DNA of 64,000 bases from Crambe crambe. Taxonomy: Eukaryota > Porifera > Demospongiae > Poecilosclerida > Crambeidae. This document shows, in pieces, positions 44,001 to 58,800 of this stretch (position 1 is its first letter; each line of letters begins with the position of its first letter). The translations under genes and the position numbers were made by a program. The notes under the pieces are model-generated. The model worked only from the letters and a program-made list of their open reading frames with translations. It was not told the DNA's origin and did not search any database. The stretch is taken from assembly GCA_963924555.1 (NCBI GenBank), contig OZ004588.1:7351205-7415204 (forward strand), given 5' to 3'.

Positions 44001-47000
44001 ATGCTTTGGTGAGTCTTGTAACTCGTTAAATCAGCTGTGTAGCTGTAAGGGGCTCTGACCCAGCCAGCTGTTTCATTATGTTAGCTTACTTGAAACAACT
44101 AGCTGAGGTGCCTCTTAGTTCATAGCTAGCTTGTGGTGAAGGTGGAAGGGAACAAGGAATAGTGAGAGAGGAGGGGAGGATGGAGGAGCAGAGTACCAAG
44201 AATGTACATCTCTAGTTCTATTTATTTAGGGTTTGGATTTTGACACTATGGGTATCACCATTGGACGCTTTATCATGTTGGGCGATCAATGGAACCAGGC
44301 CAGTTATAGAAGAGTGCCCATCTCACCTGCCACATTGTTACGCCAGTTATCATGTCAATTCGCAAGGAGAGACCTGGTTTGGGTTATTTGGATGCAACGC
44401 TCTGTATGCCTCATGCAATGTAAGTTTCTCTCTCTGACCTATACAATTAGGGAGTCTACATTACAGTATCAGACAAGGCTGTAGATGCTTGGGGTGTTAC
44501 AGCACCCCCTTGGAAAAACCAAAGAAGAAACTGAATGCAAATTAGTATAACTTGTGCACATAGATGGATAGCACCCCTCCCCCCTCAAAATATTATTCAC
44601 ACCCCTATATCCTCTTGCCCTCCCCTCCCCACGCCCTACAGAAAGCTCGATGCGAACCAACTATTGACAATTTGGGAGGAATCGTCTGTTGCTGCAATCA
44701 TAACGGCTGCAATGCCATCAACAGCCTTTCTGACTTCCCATACCACACTCCTGAGCCCCCACCCTTCCCTAGTGTGACTCCTCCCCCTGTCCGCCCAGGT
44801 GAGAACTTGCATGGAGAATAACTCATCGGTTGTAGAATACGTGGACCCAGTGAAGAATAATTGACCAATACATTTTGACCAGAGACTAGTCTAAGTTTGA
44901 TTCAAGAACTGGGCCTCAGACCTTCCTCTGGTCACGACTTGAAGAAACAAAGGGTGGGAGACAATCATACAGGAACTCTGAGATGTGGTATTGTGGACAG
45001 ATGGAGGTGGTCTTACACTATCTCATCTCGGAGTATAGCGTTCCATAGCCCTCCAAAATGTGGGCAAGTCCCTCTTTTTCAAGGGTATTCAACTGTAGAT
45101 GAGTCTCACACCATATTACACAGAAGAGTCCATTTCAGGGTGTTGGAATTTAGGAGAAGCGAGGTTCTATCCTTTAGTCTGTTGTTGATTTATCTATCTT
45201 TCAGGATATTTGCTCTGTGAAGTGTACAGTTGCTCCAGATCAAGTAATTGCTACCATGGTTATCAGAACTGTGATGGTTATTGCAGTGCATCCTACCAGT
45301 AAGTGAAGTAATGGGTTGTATATTGTACTTATTTCCCCTATCACAATTCCCTGTTGAAAAACATTAGTTTATCAGTGTTTTTTAGAGTCCTAGGTCTGGC
45401 TACAACCAAATTAATTACTTTTTGACTGATGATCTTGAAAGATATGAAGTCCAGGGTGTAGTCATTGGTATAAAAGTGTGTCCACAAAAGTGGCAGCTCT
45501 ACCACTCACTGACTGTTCACTTCTAACCCATAAACACATGAAAGCTGTCATCTCTCGGAACCTTCTGTAGCTTTGGCTCTACTGAGCATGTATGAAGGAC
45601 ATACAAGTGACATGCATGCGTGCAAGTTGAAGCCGGACATGTGGTGTGAGAAAGAGCGTGGACAGACATTAGCTGATAGAAGCCTTATCTTGTGGTGAAA
45701 TAAGCTGTTTATATACATTATACATCAATGCTCATATTGAAGCCCCAGATGTGTCACAGATAATATAACTACTTCACTTCAGATTTCTATATCCACATAT
45801 CTACTTTTTTCTTCCACAACTATTTTTCACGATCAAAAAATAAAATCATTAAGATATACTTCTGATCAAAACATCTATACCTTTTGTATCGTCACAAGAA
45901 GTAAGTCATGTGGTTACACACATAAAGCTTCAGGTAATGTCATTACTGCTAACTGTAATATGTATTTTATGTTACTGAAGCTTTGGATGTGTGTTGTTGG
46001 GTGGAATGTTGGAATGCTAGCCAACTTTAATGATGTGTAGCAGAGTAGTAAGACCAGCATGACGCCTCTATGTAAGATCACCGGAGTTCTAATGTTACAC
46101 CAGCATCTGATTGCAGTATTTTAGTAAAGTGAATTAGCACTGCAGTCTGGTCCTAACACACTTTAACAGACCACAACAGAGTTTGGGCTGTACCTTTCAA
46201 TCCTGGTGTACACATACATTTTAATCTGGGCGTAATTGAGAGCTTGGTGGGTTGAATCCAGACTCGATTACATGTCAATCTGGATGCTATAATCCACGGA
46301 TTAAAAACCGGGTCTAGTTATTTATAGTATGTAGAACAAACTTTTCAGAGTGGGAATATGTCCTGATTTGAGGGTTATAAATTCAGGAATCGATCCCTTG
46401 TTATACAGAATTCTGAGGTGAAGTCCCTGCTTGTAATTAGGTTTACAGTTGATTTAGTAAAACTTGCAACAGTAGCCAGTGGTTAAACTCTGGCTACATC
46501 AATGAAATGTGGACATTAGAGTCGGGGACTTTTTTTTTTTCCTTGTTTATATCTTGTGCTGATAAGCTTATAACAGATGGTAGTAAATAGAGTTGGTGAC
46601 CTTATGGTGAAGGGGTAAACAACATGAGGTCATATGTACCCTTGGACAGGAGGTTACTTAACCTTATCCAGCTGATAACAGCTAAGTTTCCTCTCAAATG
46701 GAAATCTCTGAACTGCATTTTAGTACAGTGCAGCATAGTAATCTTTGTCTATTTCCATTCTGGGTAATGTCTCTTCTTTTACTGGCAGGTGGATTAATGC
46801 AGCACTAAACGTGTGACCTTGAAAATACAAGTGTAATACTGTGCCATGTAGACATAGATTGTTTTCCATTTGACCCTGGGTAGTCTAGCACACAATGTTC
46901 CTTGCAGGAGCAGGTGATGTTATAAGAAGAGATTTCCTCAGCTATTGTAGCATGCAGCATAGTAAACTATCATATTTGTGGAGTGGTTGATTATGGTGTG

Positions 47001-49067
47001 TTGTTTTCCTGGTCCATTGAATCAACAAACGACTGTGTACTTTGTACTAACTGCACTGATTAATAATTTTGATGTGGAAGATTAGAATAACAACAATTCC
47101 TTATGGTAATTGCTTATGGTAGTCCAGGACTCCAGGTGCAGCTTCCCATAGCTCCTCATTTTGTACACAACTATTTTCAAAATGAATTGGCTAAAATTTT
47201 CCTTGTCCTCTTCTGTTAGTGACTGGTTCACATGTGGTTGTGTTTTTGCAGGCGAGACGTGAGAGGTAACTATGCCCTGAAGACACTGGAGTGTCTCCCC
47301 AGCAGCCCCATGAGAATCTCAATTACTCCTCCTGACAGGTACCACTTTAAATCAATCCCTACTGAAATTGAGGATGCCCCTAGCTGGATGATTTTATTTT
47401 ATCTCTTGCAGCTGTTTTCTTGACACCAGTGGTTCACATGCGGTGATACGCTGTCAGTGTGGGCGGAGCTTTTGCAATTCCATCCCTGCTCTCAATTTCA
47501 GTAGCTCCAGGAATATCATCCACTATGGTGAGTAGCTGTATGACATGGCCGTCATTATATACATGAATGTACAGGCACAGAGCATCTGTACAGAGCATGT
47601 CATGTGAATTTACAGGCATGTGAATGTACAGGCATATACAGAGCATGTCATGTGAATGTACAGGCAAATACAGAGCATGTCATGTGAATGTACATGCAGG
47701 CAAATACAGAGCATGTCATGTGAATGTATTAGGTTTTGCTTCCCTTCAGTTGACCGTGAGTGCAAGAGGTTTGGATGTGACCATATTTGTGTGAGGAGAT
47801 CAGATGGAGCTGCTCAGTGTCTCTGTCAACCTGGCTATATCCTTGATCAAGACAATAGAACATGCATAGGTGAGTACAGAACAACAACAACAATAACAAC
47901 AACAACAGACAAACAAATACTTCCATTAGTAGAGTTTGTATTGACATCCCTTACCTAACATTATTAGATTTTGATGAATGTTCAGCAAGGCCTAACTACT
48001 GTGAGTATCGGTGCATCAATACAGCCGGAAGTTATATGTGTACCTGTCCTCCTTCACAAAGACTCTTATCTGATGGTCGTACTTGTGAACAACGTAAGTT
48101 TATTATAGCCGCACATGGTCTGTTTGCAGTCACCTGCTCCTAACAGTTATAACTTATCGTTTTCACAAATTTTAAAAACCAGCTAATACAGTGTAAAATT
48201 TGGTTGAAAGTTATATTTAGCGAGGTGTCCTTTAATTAGAGAGGTATCCTTTAATTAGAGAGGTATCCTTTAATATTAGAGAGGTATCCTTTAATATTAG
48301 AGAGGTATCCTTTAATATTAGAGAGATATCCTTTAATTAGAGAGGTATCCTTTAATTAGAGAGGTATCCTTTAATATTAGAGAGGTATCCTTTAATGAGA
48401 GGTATTCTTTAATATTAGAGAGGAATCCTTTAATGAGAGAGCTATCCTAGAGAGGTATCCTTTAATATCCTTTAATAAGAGAGGTATCCTTTAATATTAG
48501 AGAGGTATCCTTTATTGAGAGGTAGAGAGGTATCCTTTAATATCCTTTAATGAGGAGGTATCCTTTAATGAGAGAGATGTTCTTTAATGAGAGAGGTAAA
48601 GAGGGACACAGAAAAGTGCCAACTGAGTCCACATGGAGCTCATTTTTATTGTAGCAACTGGCTTGGTGTGCGCGTCAAGGATCAATTGTTCACTGGATGA
48701 CTACGAATGTTTGAGACCGGATTATTGCAGCATCCCTTCCGAAGTTTGTGTCAACTTCTACACAAAAGACGAGATAACAGGAAGAATTCAGTTTCAGGTA
48801 AGTTTTTGAGGTTCTACCATAAAAATAGGTTAACTGAAATGGTGGCAATACATGATTAGATGATGTGTCCTCGTCTCATTGAATTTGACGCTCTTCCATT
48901 AAAATTACAGTAATTGTTGGAAAGTGAATATGGTTATTTCTACAGCTTGCATCTTGCTTGACTGAAGAAAGTCCTCATTGTGGAACTGATACTTGTGTTA
49001 TCCGCCAACATCCCAACAGCGCCCGATACCTCTTCTGCTGCTGCTCAGGGTCAAATTTCTGCAATGC
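44001..49067 (+). CDS. Receptor ectodomain: three three-finger-like modules and two EGF modules
   Basis: Module 1 (44230-44798): [34 protein letters not shown], then [10 protein letters not shown]. Module 2 (45205-47527): [59 protein letters not shown] 1 (47750-47869): [29 protein letters not shown] 2 (47968-48093): [27 protein letters not shown]; this has the calcium-binding D-x-D/E-C start. Module 3 (48655-49067): [48 protein letters not shown]. Each module ends in the CxC...CN pattern typical of activin/BMP receptor ligand-binding domains. Confidence 0.82.
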
Positions 49068-52000
49068 GTAAGTCATTGGAAACATCACCCATTGTACACT
49101 TTAATAATGGGGGAGTTTACATCATTATTAAGTATTGATTTGTTGGTAGGAACCCGGTGCTTGGACCCATTCCACTTCTAACAACAGCAACAATGGAACC
49201 CATGACAACACTAGGTGATGATGTCTCAACAGAGTTGACCTTTATGCCAGTCACCACGTCTTCTTTGGGTCTGACTGATAATATAAAGGAGAATAATACT
49301 GGTATTATAAATAGCCCAATCTATCATGTAGAAATCCCTAACTCCTCCCCTCCCCCTTCATCTGCAGCTGTGATTGGAATAGTAGTGGCAGCTCTGGTTT
49401 TCATACTGTCGATTATGCTGGTTATCTTGTGTTGTTGTTGTTATATGAAGGTGAGGGGTCAAACAATCCACTGGGTGTACTACAATATCATAGCTCTTTT
49501 TCTTCCCCTGCCCCTCCCCCTTCTCTCTCCCCTTCCCTCCCCTGTCCCTCTCCTCTCTTTCTGCCCCCCCCCTCCCCTTCTCTCTTCCCCACCCCTCCCC
49601 TTTAGTACCAAAAGAAGTGCAAGGAGAACCCTTTGGTGCCTATGGAAACAGACATAGAGCTGGTCTCATGTCACTCCCAACTCAATCCTGACACAGTCAC
49701 CCTCTTTGAGATTGTAGGCAATGGGAAGTTCGCCTGTGTCCGCAGGGGGACAAGTTCAGGGTATTCGAGCTCCTTGGCTGTCAAGGTCAGTCTTTAAGAA
49801 TCCCTCCAAGCTAGCTCTGACCTGTACTCGAGAATGAAAAATCAATTTGTTAGTAAATTGCAGAGACAGGACATGTCCTTTGTAGAGAGGTTGTCCTCTA
49901 GGTTTGTCCTCTTTCAGAATGTCCTTTATCTGCAGAGGTTTGCACTCTATTCTAAACTTCTCTCCAACAATGCAGATATTCCATCCTCATGCTCAGGAAT
50001 CTTTTCAGAAAGAGCTATGGATTTATTCCTTGCCCGAGTTCCAGCATCCAAACATACTTGACTTTGTCAGCAGCAGAAATGACTCACTTGGCATGTGGAT
50101 TATCACCACCTTCCACGAGCATGGCTCTCTTAGCAAAATCCTCACTCGATCAGATCCTCTGACCTGGGAACAGTGCATCAGCTTGGTCTACAGCTTTGCT
50201 AGTGGTAGGCATCAAACCTGCAGTGGGGAGGAAAATTTTAAATTTCTCTCTTTCTCTCATCCTTTCCCCTCCCCCTCCCCTCTCATCCCCCTTCCTTCTC
50301 CCCTTCCCCTCCCCTCTCCTCCCCCTTCCTTCTCCCCTTCCCCTCCCCTTTCTCCCCCTCCTCTTTCCCCTCCCCTTCCCCTCCTCTCTCTCTTTCCCCC
50401 TCCCCTCTCTCTTTCCCCCCTCCCTTTCCCCCTCCCCTTCCTCCTCCCTTGTTGTAGGCCTCGCATTTCTCCACAACGAGTGTGGGCGGAAGCCAGCCAT
50501 TGCTCATCGGGACTTGAAGACCTCTAACGTGCTGGTTAAGAATAGCTGGGAGGTCTGCATCAGTGACTTTGGCCTGAGCAGTGCTCTGCCTTATGAATCT
50601 GATCGGAGTGGAGTGAGCCAGGTAGGCAAAATACACATGTAGACATGTACATGCATGTATAGGCATGTACATGTATACATGTGGACAGACATTCATTAGG
50701 TATGAGTGAGAGCCTATATTGTGTGACTTGGTAAGGGATGTCACTATGACTTGCCACTTTATTAGCAAACAAAACCGCACTGCCACACCCATTCTCATTT
50801 AATACCACACCCCTGTCTTGTATGTAGGTGGGCACTCCCAGATACATGGCCCCTGAGCTCATTGACCTCGAGATGGACATTGCAGTGGACACTGCCCTCC
50901 GACACATGGACCTGTATGCATCGGGACTCGTCATCTGGGAAGTGGCCTCCCGGACATGTCCTCCTCACTTTAACATCAGTGAGTCTCCATGTACAAAACT
51001 TATCCAGCACCTCCCAAAATGCAGTATCTGGTCACATTTTACCCTTGAACAGCCTTATTGGTCAGTTCACTACTTGGAAATGTACATGTACATGCACATG
51101 TACATGTACATGTACATGCAGTATGAAAGTCAATGGTACATGTACATGCAGTATAAAAGCCATTAGCCTGATAGGTGTCTCTGCTCTATGGCTCTTTGTT
51201 AGTGGCCTTGCTTGTGGCATGCACAGTGCACAAACATGTGGGGGCACTCTGAGGACACATGTCTTCAACTACCTCATGACACATGTACGATACAAGTGGG
51301 AGGTGCTATCCTTGGCCTTCGTGTGGCTACTGGGTCCATGTACTCTCTTCGTGTTAGCTGTTACTTTATTAAGATCGAGTGAAGCTACACTGAGAAGCTC
51401 ATGTCCCCAAGTGACGCCCTAGTCTAGGAATCCAACCAAGGTGTGGGAAGAGTAGTTTTGCTTAATGAGCCGTCACTAACCTTATAGTGATTCTGCCACT
51501 GAAATGGACAACAGTGACTGCACGGCTGACTACCTCTGTGTACCAATATCATCGTCTTGCGTGTACATAGGAGCCTTTGTGTGAGCCCTTAAAGGCATAC
51601 ACACCTACGGATAAGCCGATACGATTCCCTAAGTTATCAGTGCAGGGACTATATCAGAGAATGAATTTCATTCATCTGACCCTTCTCCTAGGTAGTTTAT
51701 TTTAGTGTGTACTGATAAAATTCTATTCGATTTTTGTTATTCCTGATTACACCATCTCATCTCACCATCACCCCCCCCTCCCCCCCCCCCCCCCCCCCCC
51801 CCACATCAAATTTTGGAGAGATAATAATATAACTTATCATGATATTCCTGTAGTGACAGGACTTGGTTATCTGAGAAAAGACTTGGTAGCGTGCTTGACT
51901 GCTTCTCTTGGCGTTGAGGTGTGGGGGCATGTTTGTTTGTTTATACTCCACTCCATGGCCTAATTATTACCTCGCTCAGCTCACCTTAGAGAGTGGAATT

Positions 52001-55000
52001 ACATCTTGGAAGTCAGATCCAGCCTAGCTCTTTTCTGAGAGTAAAATTAGTTCGAAAAATTCAACAGATCTTGTAGAAATGAAGTAAAAATAGAAATTAG
52101 AAACCACATAAAATTAACTGTCTTTAGTGATGTAGTCGGAAGGATATTGTATATCAATAGAATTAGTTTTATCCATGGTTTATTAGAATTCTATTGAATT
52201 TTTTATCGTAGAAATAAGAAGATCATGATATTATCATGATTTATTAGGGTGGCTGTTAAATAGTAGCAGTGACCTCTCCTCCTACACTGTTCTCCCAGCC
52301 CACAGAAAAGGGGCTCGTTCCCACCACCTCCCCCTCCCCCTCCATAACTCTTCCCAGAGATAATTGAGCAGAAGTTGTGGATTTCCAGGAATGCTATTTG
52401 TGGGCAGTAGGCAGAGGAGTCTTCAGGGACAGGTGTCCACAACTGGCCCAGCCACATGTATTCTGTCTGCTGTCATAATAGTCAGGCTGACCACTTATCA
52501 TTTTCTAAAATAAAAAAAAAGCAAATTTGAATTTTTGTTAAAGACAGTCTTTTCTTTCCTACATTAAATTGCATGCCACTTCATTGCAATGCTGTACATT
52601 TAGTGAGTGAGCAGGCAGATGGAATACCACCTTGCTTCTCCCCTTCTATTTCATAACCTTGAAATTGGAACATATTTTCAACGCCTCAATGACACCACCA
52701 TTATTACATCACATGGGAGGATCACTCTACCGTCTCCTGAGGGGAAAGCCTCATATTTAACGGCTGCTGCTCAAATTGAGTGTACTAATAAGATTCTCCA
52801 CGGCATATTTATTGCCGGCTACTGTAACTGAGTGGTGTGCAGACCACATTCTCTCACAGTGTGACAAGCCTCATTGGAGAGGAAGAACGGGCAGTCACTC
52901 CTGAGAATCAGCCAAGCACTAGACCGGCATTTCTGTTTTTTGTCCTTGGGTGACCGATCAGTCAATAATGCCTTGGGCCTGCTCTTGCATGGCGGCACAT
53001 GCAGATCCATAGCTTATGGCATGTACATGGTACAGATGAGACCAATAGAACATGTATGTGACATGCATGTACATGGTACAGATGAAAACATGTATGGGAC
53101 ATGCATGTTGTGGCAGGCTGTCTACATAAAATTTATAATCTCAAACTGATGTATGTATCACAATCTAACCTTGCATGTTTCAGTGCTCTAGACGCAAGTC
53201 TATCGATGCTACCTTTGTTCAAATTGCAACATTATGTCTCTTGGAGCAATTCCTCTGCTCACTCACTTGCATATCCACATGAGAGAGGATCTAATGGTCT
53301 CATCTAACATCCCTACTACTAGTCTCCTCGGTCTCTATTACACTCATTGTGCCCGTTACCGCCAGTATCTTGTTACCATGCCCACTCTACCATGGCCACA
53401 AAATAACAGTGCAATAGATGATGGCATCTGTAGAGAGTTCAAAGGTCAGGTGACTTGAGGTCAGATTATAACTCCTAAGCAAAGGTCATCGGTTGAGATG
53501 TCAATACTGCAGAGTATAAAGGGGAAACATCAAAAAACCCTTCACTAATTATCTTCGTGGATGTGCCTACTCAAAGGGATAGAAAGATAACGTGTAGGTT
53601 TTGAAAGGGTTAATGGAACGAGGCTGAGCACACATATCAGGAATCAGATCAGCTTGTTCAAGGCAATGTTCCAACTCGGCCATCTTGATGACTTATTCAA
53701 TCAACCACAAACCTCTCCTCACACATCACGATTACTTCAACATGCACTAGAGCTACCTTCATTTAGCGATGAATTAACTATGGGGGTGCATGCTATTTCC
53801 TCTTATTACATAGCATATAAGGTGCTTATTTTATACTAATTACAAGGTATTTCCTCTTTAATTACTTGCTAAATCACAAGATTCCTTCTCATGAAAGCAA
53901 TTATTACTGAGTGGAATATCATCACCAATGCAATGTTATTGTGTACTGATCTTTCCACATTCATGCTTTAATGATTTTTATTTCTGCTTATCATCGTCCC
54001 CCCCCCCCCCCCCCCCCTCCCTCTCGTGTACTGAGGGCCTATATATATATGTATGCTACCAAGCGAAGCAATCACTCTATGCCACATGTCGTCTTATTAT
54101 TAGTAAACATGTTTTGACGTTGATAATCTCTTCTCTTTGTTCATCTCCCCCCCACACACTCTCTATCATGGGTGCGAGGTAATCAACCAATGAGATCTCT
54201 CCTGGACATGTTCTCCCTCCCATGGTTGGTTGTGGCCTTTACTGTTCCATATATTCAGTCATGGGTGTAGGCCCAATCACCCGGACAGTGTTATTCCAGG
54301 GTAAACAACCTTATCCATCACTTTGCTGTCACGGAAGTAGTTCCATACTAATACTTTATTCAACCTCTGTATTGAGGACACCTCTATACTAAGGACACTT
54401 GTTCTAGTCCTTTAGTGCATTGTTCAACCTCTGTATTGAGGACACCTCTATACTAAGGACACTTGTTCTAGTCCCATACTAATGCATTATTCAACCTCTG
54501 TATTGAGGACACCTCTATACTAAGGACACTTGTTCTAGTCCCATACTAATAATAATTATTATAGTATTTAGTACATTTCTATAATTATTATTGAGAACAC
54601 CAGACACTTAGTGCTTCTAGTCCCATAGTAACACTTTACTTATTATGAACTGCCATCATACTTGCATAGGTGATATTCCCCCATATCAGGCCCCCTATGA
54701 GGAGTATCTGGGCTCTAAGCAACCTCCTAGTATCGAAGCAATGAAGAACCTATTCATGAGGGACTCCAGATTACGTCCCACCATCCCCCCTCGCTTCGCC
54801 ACCAATCACGTAAGTCGTCTCAACCCACTGTCAACCCATATATGCCCAGACAGATCACAGGGTTCTACTCATAGTTTTCTCTAGCCACACCCACTCTTTC
54901 CAAACCATGCCCATTGACTAACTGATGTCTATTTTCAGGACTATGAGGACTTTGTCAAGATAATAGAGGACCTGTGGCATTCCGATCCTGGCACTAGAAT

Positions 55001-55367
55001 CTCTGCCACATGCTTACTCGAAAGAGTGCAACCACTCAAGACATCCCCTGATGATAGTGGGATTGAGGGCATGGTATGCTACTATATCTTTGTGTACATG
55101 TGCATGCCTGTCCTATGCATGTACATGTCATGTAGCTGTGCATGTATGTGCTGTGCATGTGATATCTGATACATGTATGTCCATGTGTGATATGTGCATA
55201 TGATGTGTGCATGTGTGTTGTTTCCTTGGATATACGAGAAGATTCCTTCACGTTGCATGCTGTACACATGTACATGTATGTAGGGTCATCATGCAGATGG
55301 ACATTCTCCCCTGGATGTGAAGCCAAGGACTAGTAATGCTTTTTCAGATTTATCAACTACTGTTTGA
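44001..55367 (+). CDS. Type II activin/TGF-beta-like receptor Ser/Thr kinase with triple ectodomain and EGF modules
   Basis: Exons 44001-44008, 44230-44419, 44642-44798, 45205-45298, 47252-47338, 47412-47527, 47750-47869, 47968-48093, 48655-48797, 48946-49067, 49150-49450, 49606-49785, 49976-50204, 50458-50621, 50828-50978, 54670-54809, 54939-55073 and 55284-55367 join in phase to 848 residues. Order: signal peptide ([18 protein letters not shown], begun by an 8 nt exon), three cysteine modules each ending C-x-C-x4-C-N-like ([31 protein letters not shown]), two EGF modules between the second and third, a Thr/Ser stalk, a transmembrane helix ([20 protein letters not shown]), and a complete kinase. 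There is no GS box, and the kinase matches type II receptors. In the family, type II receptors phosphorylate type I partners after ligand binding. The extra ectodomain modules are unusual. Confidence 0.9.
45299..47251. other. Receptor intron, nothing recognised
   Basis: 1.95 kb within cysteine module 2. No exon fitting phase 2 and no clear element seen. Confidence 0.5.
48215..48600. repeat. Variable 17-21 bp tandem array
   Basis: About 18 imperfect units of agagaggtatcctttaat(att) lie in the intron before cysteine module 3. They are the reverse complement of the 30455-30650 unit family, with AT insertions. Confidence 0.88.
49606..55367 (+). CDS. Receptor kinase domain, type II class
   Basis: Kinase motifs in order: glycine loop [13 protein letters not shown], catalytic Lys in [23 protein letters not shown] in ISDFGLSS, and APE equivalent [12 protein letters not shown]. 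These are followed by the type-II-specific [19 protein letters not shown], then [28 protein letters not shown] and [18 protein letters not shown]. All catalytic residues are present. The C-terminal tail ([12 protein letters not shown]) is short. A 3.7 kb intron (50979-54669) splits the C-lobe. Confidence 0.9.
51771..51802. repeat. Poly-C tract
   Basis: About 30 C residues broken by one T, in the kinase-domain intron. Confidence 0.9.
54355..54545. repeat. Three-copy 60-63 bp tandem repeat
   Basis: Units contain ttcaacctctgtattgagga and ctaaggacacttgttctagt. A related sequence lies at 57843-58010 in a PaxB intron. Confidence 0.88.
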
Positions 55368-55378
55368 CCACCACAGAC

Positions 55379-55384
55379 AATAAA
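55379..55384 (+). terminator. Polyadenylation signal of the receptor gene
   Basis: AATAAA, 12 bases after the stop codon at 55365-55367. Close spacing implies a very short 3' UTR, so a later signal may be used. Confidence 0.5.
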
Positions 55385-55842: not shown

Positions 55843-58800
55843 ATGATGGTAAAAGGATCAAGTGCTGCTGGGCAAGGGGGAGTGAATCAACTAGGTGGCG
55901 TATTTGTCAACGGTAGGCCCCTGCCTGAGATAGTTCGAAGGAAGATAGTCGAGTTATCGAACTCTGGTGTTCGTCCATGTGACATCAGTCGCCAGTTGAG
56001 AGTGTCCCATGGCTGTGTCAGCAAGATTCTTGGAAGGTGAGTGGTTATAATGTGCTGAAGGTGTGAGTTATATGTACCTTGAGGCTTCACTGTTGCAGAT
56101 AGCTGCACTTGACTTAGCATGCATGCTTGATTACCTATCTTCAAAAATTGCTAGCTTGTCTTTTCTCTCTTGTCGACTTTGCAGGTATTACGAAACTGGT
56201 TCTATTAAGCCTGGAGTTATAGGTGGGAGCAAGCCTAAAGTCGCCACTCCGAATGTTGTTGCTAAAATTGAAGATTATAAACAGGAGAATCCATCCATCT
56301 TTGCATGGGAGATTCGAGATAGACTGTTACAAGAGGGGGTTTGTGATAAGGGTAATGTTCCTTCTGTTAGCTCCATTAACAGAATCGTACGAACGAGGGC
56401 GCAGCAGAGACAGAAAGCGTTGCAAGACAAGGCTCCTTACATGGGACATCATGTACCACTGGTACATACAGATCCATCCACTGGATATCCACTTACTATT
56501 CACGGAGAAGCATTCCTTCCCAATGCAGCGGCAATGCCTCAGGGGCTGATGGCTGCAGCACCGCATTATAGCAATCTCCCGGTCCCTAGTTCCGGACTCC
56601 TTCAGCAGCAAGCAGCATTCATCCCGCAGGGAGCTCGCATGCCTCACTCCCATTTCCCCTCGCACCCGCATCCCCATCATGCACAGACAGCTCTGGACCA
56701 TTCCTCTTCGCTGATGAGCATGGCCGGGTCTGTTCCCCCAGTGTGTGGGGGGTTCACAGCCATCGAAGCCCCCCACTACATAGGGAACGTTTCTGCTGAA
56801 TCCAGTACAGCCGTGGTGTCTATGCAGGGGAAGATATTTCCCCATCCAATGAGCGCAGCTCATTATGGAGGGTTTACCTCATCATCATCTACTGCTGCTG
56901 CCTCCTACCCTGTAGCACTTAGTCCTGAACAGAATCAGAATGGGTCGCAGACCAACCTCCAAATTGCCATTAGTCCACGAAGCATGCAGGCTTGTTCCCC
57001 TCACAGTGGCTACCAAGCTTCCTGTAGTTCTGGGTGCCACTCCCCCTCGTCCACTTCCTGTCCCCAGCAGAGTGACGTGGGGAACGCTCACTCCCCCAAC
57101 ATGCCTGTCAGGAGCAGTGACAAAGCAGCCATGATGAGTCCAGGGAATGGATCAACACCCCAAGACTACATCAGGAACAAGGAAGAAGGTGAATATGCAT
57201 GGATTTTGCATGTTATGAATGAAATTTGCATGTAGTTTGCATGTATGTGTATGGATTTCATAGCATAATGACTGATAATTTCTGTGAGCATGATATCAAA
57301 AAAAAAATTATTGATGCAAAAAAATTTTTGATCTGGTGACTATGACCCATTTTGAAAGTGTATTTCGGCACTTGGGAGTGTATCTTTAGCTGAAAATCAG
57401 TGAAACATGGCGATACCAATCCTGAAACTATCCAGGACAGATGGATCTAACCTGAGCCCAGGAAGATCAACAAAGGATGAATTCTAGTGGGGGACTGGAA
57501 AAGGTGTTACCTTGACCCTAGCTGAATTGTGGCTGTGAAAGTGATTGATTGTTATCTCTGGGGAGGGAGGACTGGATGAAAAACACACAAGGGAGGAGAG
57601 CTAAGTCTCCCACACAAATCACTGGGGCCACATGAACACTGCCCCCTATACCACAACTCCTTGATTCCCTTCCACATGTAAACAGTGGTGTAGATTCCAC
57701 CACCTGACAACTCTCCAACACACACAAACATTCGTTTCAGCTCCTTTTTCAGTCTTTATCTCTCCCCTGTATCAGAAGGGAGAGGGTTGTGATGATTTAT
57801 GTCTGTCTAAAATAGCAAAATTTACCAATTTTGTGTTTCATACTTCAACCTCTATGCAGGACACTATACTAAGCTTGTCTACTCCTGAGCTTAAACTTGT
57901 CTATTCTAAGCTTGTCTACTCCTAAGCTTAAACTTGTCTATTTCTAAGCTTGTCTACTCGGTCATTAGGACACTCCCTCACTTAGGACACTTGTTCTACT
58001 ATTACTAGGACACTTGAAAGATCAGCAGGTCACAGAATTGAGTGTAGCATGCAATGCATGGTGCACTGATTAATGGAATTCATCTTGTGTTAACCAGCTG
58101 GTAAACACTTGTCAACAAAAGTGCCTTAGACATTTTTTTCAAATTTTTTAATCTGCCAAGATTCCTGCTGATATTGGTGTCTGTTGTGGTCAACTATTAA
58201 TGTTGGGTCAAGTATGAGGGAATGGTACCAAGGTACTGAGGTCAGTCTCTTATGACTAGGACTAGATGCTAACTAAATGCATGCTAGCAAGTGGGAGCAT
58301 GTGTTAACATGGACCTTTTTATCGATGGCTGACTTTTTTTAGCGGGGTAGCCTGGTTGGCAGGCCCTAGAATAGCTACTACAGGTATAGGCCATTCTATA
58401 CAGATTTCATCAGAATCTTACTTATTTCATTCGTGGAGTATAAGACAGTTCTTTGGTTGGGAGATTTGAATCATCCACTTAGTGGCATAGATGGTACCTG
58501 ACTTCACTTCTGGCCATATCTTTGTGGCATCTCCTGATGATTGATTCTACAGATAATGAAACTTTGAAATAGTTGAGCGATGAGAACATTTCTCTGTATT
58601 TTATTTGGAATATTTGTGGGTGTTCAAATTACCATATCATTTTTCATGATTTGTCTAGTGTTGGAGTCCCTAAAGTCTGTGTGCTTTTCAGGAGGGGGGC
58701 CTGTTGATCCTTCGCTCAAATGAGTGTTTGATTTGATGAGTGGTCCCAATTCACTCTAGAGGCTTGAAGGAAAAAGGAAGAGCCACCCACCCACCAAGGA

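Follow-up and report, generated by a model that had tools for sequence, protein, structure and literature searches.

The window analysed here, a stretch of 64,000 nucleotides from the sponge Crambe crambe (contig OZ004588.1), carries on its forward strand a receptor kinase gene model that extends from 44001 to 55367. The model has 18 exons, namely 17 exons and an inferred first exon of eight bases, and its predicted protein of 848 amino acids consists, in this order, of a signal peptide, a first cysteine module (M1), a Pro-rich linker, a second cysteine module (M2), two epidermal growth factor modules (EGF1 and EGF2), a third cysteine module (M3), a Thr/Pro-rich stalk, a transmembrane helix and a kinase. 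Signal peptide and single transmembrane helix are both evident by eye in the predicted protein, the signal peptide starting in the inferred exon. Known type II receptors of the transforming growth factor β (TGF-β) superfamily combine a kinase with a single small ligand-binding module. As set out below, the locus is likely to be a single gene for such a type II receptor kinase, with a composite ectodomain of M1, M2, the EGF pair and M3. The number of ectodomain modules is its unusual feature, while the receptor class itself is known.

Exons 2 to 18, from 44230 to 55367, share one frame of 846 codons, the stop codon counted. Each of the model's 17 introns is of the GT-AG type, and the frame is unbroken to the stop at 55367. 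At each of the four borders M1-M2, M2-EGF1, EGF1-EGF2 and EGF2-M3 there is a phase-1 intron, which is the pattern expected of shuffled extracellular modules. Furthermore, an internal phase-0 intron is common to M1 and M3, in both cases three residues ahead of a cysteine. Splice sites were ranked against the 708 GTs (donors) and the 722 AGs (acceptors) of the locus. The weaker ones are the acceptors 44642, 47968 and 54670 and the donors 47338 and 50204, which are equalled or bettered by 22-32% of the candidate sites in the locus. We infer that exon 1 is part of the gene; in the paralogue described below, two of the four listed first-exon candidates share one end, followed by GTGAGT. The features are collected in Table 1.

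Table 1. Exons of the receptor gene model and associated features of the window
Feature	Position	Strand	Evidence or remark
Inferred exon 1, coding part ATG CTT TG, signal peptide start	44001..44008	+	donor TTGGTGAGT in top 1.6% of 708 GTs; phase fits
Exon M1a, remaining signal peptide and first part of module 1	44230..44419	+	190 bases and phases as in paralogue exon
Exon M1b, end of module 1 (CCCNHNGCN) and Pro-rich linker	44642..44798	+	157 bases in both paralogues
Exon M2a, module 2 start	45205..45298	+	gene model, paralogue comparison
Exon M2b, module 2 middle	47252..47338	+	gene model, paralogue comparison
Exon M2c, module 2 end (CQCGRSFCN)	47412..47527	+	116 bases in both paralogues; type II ectodomain profile match
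EGF module 1, single exon, phases 1-1	47750..47869	+	Pfam FXa_inhibition above cut-off; 120 bases in both paralogues
EGF module 2, calcium-binding type, single exon, phases 1-1	47968..48093	+	Pfam EGF_CA above cut-off; weak acceptor
Minisatellite, ~20-base units, most of EGF2-M3 intron	48217..48598	+	units of 19-21 bases (TTAGAGAGGTATCCTTTAATA)
Possible alternative start MELIFIVA..., in frame with M3 exon	48633..48654	+	two-gene or short-isoform alternative
Exon M3a, module 3, first part	48655..48797	+	gene model, splice-site ranking
Exon M3b, module 3 end	48946..49067	+	AMHR2 ectodomain match, E 0.0027; Activin_recp 16.2 bits, below 20.9 cut-off
Exon with Thr/Pro-rich stalk and transmembrane helix	49150..49450	+	judged by eye
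Juxtamembrane segment and kinase start (glycine loop, AVK lysine)	49606..49785	+	without GS box
Kinase exon 2	49976..50204	+
Kinase exon 3	50458..50621	+
Kinase exon 4 (APE)	50828..50978	+
Kinase exon 5	54670..54809	+
Kinase exon 6	54939..55073	+
Last exon, short tail and stop	55284..55367	+	AATAAA at 55379

The initial annotation had claimed three TGF-β-receptor-type cysteine modules with ends of the CxC...CN type and two EGF modules between the second and the third. These elements are present in the sequence: M1, M2, EGF1, EGF2 and M3 contain 10, 10, 6, 6 and 12 cysteines, even numbers throughout, and the two six-cysteine modules lie between M2 and M3. From its third cysteine onwards M1 has the spacing 18, 6, 4, 11, 0, 0, 4, a near-exact match to the 17, 6, 5, 11, 0, 0, 4 of ActRIIB. 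When a profile of M1, built from two rows (window gene and paralogue), was compared with solved structures, 13 distinct sequences were matched up to E 10, all of them activin receptors (E 0.013-0.055; 12 carry the name type II, one is called simply 'activin receptor'). M3 alone gave eight matches up to E 10, seven of which are type II receptor ectodomains: AMHR2 comes first, three ActRII and three TGFBR2 structures follow at E 0.26-1.6, and the eighth is an unrelated PH-domain protein. Thus, among solved structures, M1 and M3 match type II receptors and not Ly6 proteins. For M2 the same database (PDB) returned no receptor, only three filamins at E of at least 1, so that the case for M2 is one of profile comparison. 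Against a profile of six type II ectodomains, M2 aligned over 79 columns, the full module length, with an E-value of 2.4e-5 for this single comparison. The corresponding scores were 32.0 for M1, 31.3 for M2 and 23.6 for M3, compared to 12.5 for the EGF pair as a control. In shuffles that kept the cysteine columns in place and permuted the remaining columns (150 per module), the real score was never reached for M1, M2 or M3 (z 4.1, 8.3 and 3.9; shuffle means 16.1, 11.4 and 13.1; maxima 25.4, 18.4 and 21.3).

Several results weigh against this assignment, in addition to the failed structure match of M2. Without the paralogue row the M2 score falls from 31.3 to 20.8, and the match of M3, the weakest of the three, extends over only 22 columns. 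The Pfam family Activin_recp was matched by neither M1 nor M2, and M3 stays below its cut-off. Among all Pfam families none was found for M1 and two weak unrelated ones for M2, EGF2 being recognised as EGF_CA. In the whole genome the Activin_recp profile matched one place, which is not the window gene; the profile is thus insensitive here. The TGFBR2 ectodomain family PF08917 gave three sub-cut-off matches on C1, none of which is the window gene (C1, C6, C8, C9, C11 and C16 are sequences of the same genome as the window). Direct profile comparisons among M1, M2 and M3 were weak (scores 21.1, 11.6 and 17.2) and do not support the idea that the three are more closely related among themselves than with other receptors. 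Overall, the data support the view that M1, M2 and M3 are predicted modules of the ActRII-type ectodomain family of type II receptors, M1 and M3 on the basis of the structure search and M2 on the basis of the profile.

The kinase has intact catalytic motifs, and no GSG-type motif of a GS box occurs in the predicted protein. Among solved structures it matches ActRIIA best (E 1.9e-52). A tree built from 17 kinases placed the window kinase on the type II side with a support of 100/100, and the same position and support were obtained with 13 rows from which other long branches had been removed. Some observations argue for caution: the PDB matches after ActRIIA are type I receptors, TGFBR2 and BMPR2 coming further down; the nearest row by plain identity (40-41%) is a type I receptor of the same genome; the kinase sits on a long branch (2.17-2.21); and a grouping of the six type II references that excludes the window kinase cost only 3.8 log units (p-AU 0.113). 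Due to this low cost, the window kinase may be a stem type II kinase. By its sequence it groups with type II and not with type I, either within or just beside the six references, and kinase and module type together assign the predicted protein to the type II receptors. The in-phase splicing of the ectodomain to a complete type II kinase, as initially annotated, thus agrees with the GT-AG introns, the single frame and the intact catalytic motifs. No sponge name appears among the best 120 of 581 protein database matches of the kinase, where unnamed entries cannot be judged. Genome kinase searches detected three GS-box genes, carrying SGSGSG or SGSGAG, and one further related kinase on C9 as well as a second type II candidate on C11; the genome therefore contains two type II candidates, including the window gene, beside several type I genes.

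A paralogue of the first part of the ectodomain is located at C8:2791513-2796552 (L045 2514-7553). Its six shared exons code for M1, M2 and EGF1 and have 190, 157, 103, 84, 116 and 120 bases, compared to 190, 157, 94, 87, 116 and 120 in the window gene, with identical phases; its donor GTTCAA after M1b is weak. Over 251 aligned codons the two proteins are 54% identical, and three methods gave a dN of 0.36-0.37 and a dS of 1.4-2.2. First, second and third codon positions differ at 34%, 27% and 54%. With dN below dS and an excess of third-position differences, the protein sequence has been conserved, the pairwise figure covering both copies jointly. M1-M2-EGF1, whose exons all recur in the paralogue and which shows signs of purifying selection, is thus a real unit. 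After EGF1 the paralogue continues with a phase-1 splice to another three-finger-like module, a long Thr/Pro-rich stalk, a short hydrophobic end and a stop. The window kinase had no match at E <= 10 in the 20 kb around it (L045-L046), and the genome kinase searches list no TGF-β-receptor-like kinase in this region. Judged from its sequence, the paralogue could be a decoy, a co-receptor or a glycosylphosphatidylinositol (GPI)-anchored protein. Like the BAMBI-type pseudoreceptors, it has a receptor ectodomain without a kinase and could trap ligand or receptor; it differs from them in that its relationship is confined to the ectodomain and in having three modules and a single EGF. BAMBI-type pseudoreceptors are named in the available part of PMC3169577. 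An exon-like stretch at C6:8918327-8918539 shares 42% identity with the paralogue's third module (E 5.9e-5), which points to further three-finger-type genes.

The decisive junction for the composite ectodomain is that between EGF2 and M3. Its donor ranks in the top 0.9% of the 708 GTs and its acceptor in the top 3.5% of the 722 AGs, with matched phases. We consider it probable that all exons belong to one gene and would be read as a single transcript, a short alternative form or two genes accounting for most of the remaining probability. The following points speak against one gene. An ATG at 48633, which lies 22 bases ahead of the M3 exon in the same frame, would give a signal-peptide-like start to a one-module receptor. 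In-frame ATGs precede 6 of the 16 internal exons, of which that at 48633 opens the most hydrophobic stretch (2.56 vs 1.24 for the next), and such a start was seen at only two of 108 acceptor-frame controls in the window, 48633 itself and 42674. EGF2 has the weak acceptor 47968, and for EGF2, M3, the transmembrane helix and the kinase no counterpart could be demonstrated in the paralogue, where the third module fails to align with M3. That module scored 28.3 against a mixed type I/II reference set and 17.3 against type II alone; being nearer to the mixed set and unaligned to M3, it need not be the same as the third module of the window gene.

The locus could accordingly be divided into two adjacent genes, one for a secreted kinase-less M1-M2-EGF1-EGF2 protein (44001-48093 and an unseen end) and one for an ordinary one-module (M3) type II receptor starting at 48633. 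The hydrophobic in-frame start upstream of M3 would fit such an arrangement, as would the existence of a kinase-less paralogue with M1-M2-EGF1 and the single extracellular receptor domain of the receptors described in the available parts of PMC8235796 and PMC3169577. However, the frame read on beyond EGF2 runs into a stop, and neither AATAAA nor ATTAAA was found in 48094-48654, a gap that is mostly minisatellite, while one AATAAA follows 12 bases past the stop of the gene. Donor and acceptor of this junction are strong and phase-matched, and in the paralogue, too, EGF1 is followed by a phase-1 junction to a three-finger-like module. Moreover, if the signal peptide were cleaved after VCA, M3 would lose one of its 12 cysteines and retain 11, and the lost one corresponds, as we read the alignment, to the first cysteine of ActRII modules; cleavage before that cysteine would leave a very short hydrophobic stretch. 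We regard two genes as unlikely. A single locus with two promoters, from which a long three-module and a short one-module receptor sharing M3, transmembrane helix and kinase are made, would account for the fact that splice junction and alternative start both look usable. The short form meets the same odd-cysteine problem, and we give this arrangement a low probability.

An assembly or annotation artefact, or a decaying locus that merely resembles one gene, was also considered. Exons of the window gene do get copied: on C16 (L052:4874-5191) a copy of 342 aligned bases, 92% identical to 44613-44953, holds the M1b exon with its intron flanks, alone in 10 kb. The joined frame of the window gene contains no stop or frameshift, however, and the comparison with the paralogue shows constraint on the protein sequence. 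A pseudogene or artefact was rejected on these grounds and appears highly improbable.

Like ACVR2A/B, BMPR2, AMHR2 and TGFBR2, the probable single gene of the window codes for a kinase without GS box, one putative transmembrane helix and a membrane-adjacent ActRII-type module. Unlike these receptors, it has three modules instead of the usual one, provided that the gene model is right, with the EGF pair between the second and the third. Several three-finger modules in one extracellular chain are also found in uPAR/Ly6 proteins, which are GPI-anchored, without a kinase and without an EGF pair inside. The window gene resembles these in that its extracellular chain has several modules of putative three-finger type but differs in having a predicted transmembrane helix and a kinase.

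The initial annotation had regarded this layout as a possibly undescribed receptor form, and this agrees with our searches within their limits. The protein database search (5.8 billion proteins) requires shared five-residue words and a length of 0.55-1.75 times that of the query, so that distant or much shorter relatives can escape it. Within these limits ectodomain residues 15-218 had no match at E <= 10 among 114 candidates. Residues 1-410 gave six matches at E <= 0.001 among 1048 candidates, none of them receptors: three fibulins, one fibrillin and two uninformatively named proteins with the same EGF-type Pfam domains were discarded. No receptor of the three-module and EGF layout was found in the literature searched, which was covered by titles and abstract openings. 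Going by the descriptions in papers, type II receptors are present in the sponge and ctenophore sets of Amphimedon, Halisarca dujardinii, glass sponges and Mnemiopsis as well. In the available parts of PMC8235796 and PMC3169577 receptors combine an extracellular receptor domain with a transmembrane domain and a kinase, and PMC5684314, as far as available, ascribes a 'typical domain composition' to most receptors; extra modules are mentioned in none of these parts, which sets the window gene apart from the receptors described there. In the available main text the term 'EGF' occurs nowhere in PMC3169577 and once, for LRP5/6, in PMC8235796.

Concerning function, the receptor interpretation of the initial annotation stands as far as the three type II-family modules, the EGF pair, the in-phase join and the type II kinase are concerned, whereas its suggestion of binding to several ligands or several sites can be kept only as a conjecture from sequence. 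The gene would have arisen via duplication and shuffling of exons bordered by phase-1 introns. The membrane-proximal M3 would act as the usual ligand-binding module of a type II receptor, while the EGF pair might hold M1-M2 away from the membrane for a second contact. This contact could be made with the same dimeric ligand, at its other protomer or on another face, resulting in avidity, or with a partner or matrix protein. Bound ligand would then recruit a GS-box type I receptor, which the window kinase would phosphorylate, leading to Smad signalling.

According to the available part of PMC9234707, ACVR2A and BMPR2 have an aromatic hot spot (BMPR2 Y67, W85, F115), and TGFBR2 binds via its outer strand and AMHR2 via aliphatic residues. 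Even with a correct gene model, M1 and M2 could serve as a spacer, a co-receptor contact or for adhesion, with M3 alone binding ligand; this is compatible with the single-gene structure and a serious possibility, although not the one we favour. Against a binding role of M1 and M2, and against the scheme above, speak the hot-spot aromatics: if these are placed on the columns CY, GCW and FCCC, Y is present in M1, F in M3, none in M2, and W nowhere. In contrast to ACVR2 and BMPR2, no module of the window gene has the complete hot spot, so that ligand, if bound at all, would be bound in another way than by ACVR2. However, M1 keeps the ActRII cysteine spacing almost exactly, and with TGFBR2 and AMHR2 binding by other residues (PMC9234707, available part) a loss of aromatics is compatible with binding.

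Rather tentatively, and with more doubt than confidence, one may envisage a lineage-specific multivalent type II receptor whose three modules engage a dimeric ligand or two ligands, with the kinase-less relative as a decoy or co-receptor and, possibly, none of the known diffusible antagonists in this animal. If the gene is expressed as predicted, the ectodomain of these receptors was free to multiply and to take in EGF modules in at least one early-branching animal line, and multivalent binding, if true, would offer a testable natural case of receptor avidity. The kinase-less relative is a candidate for ligand control, given that Amphimedon and Mnemiopsis are reported to be without known diffusible antagonists in the available part of PMC3169577.

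Some further observations concern other receptor genes and the surroundings of the locus. The three GS-box type I genes on C9 lie at about 4.85-4.93 Mb with one ectodomain module near each, and the further related kinase lies at 4.29 Mb. An extra receptor-type ectodomain exon is present on C9 (L049), with no kinase match within that 10 kb. The second type II-like receptor is situated at C11:7432500-7439499 on the opposite strand, about 28 kb from the window gene; its ectodomain exon seems to be duplicated upstream, the reading frame of the copy being broken. Just downstream of the receptor gene, at 55843-57235 and on the same strand, follows a paired-box gene (PAX domain, E 2.4e-71).

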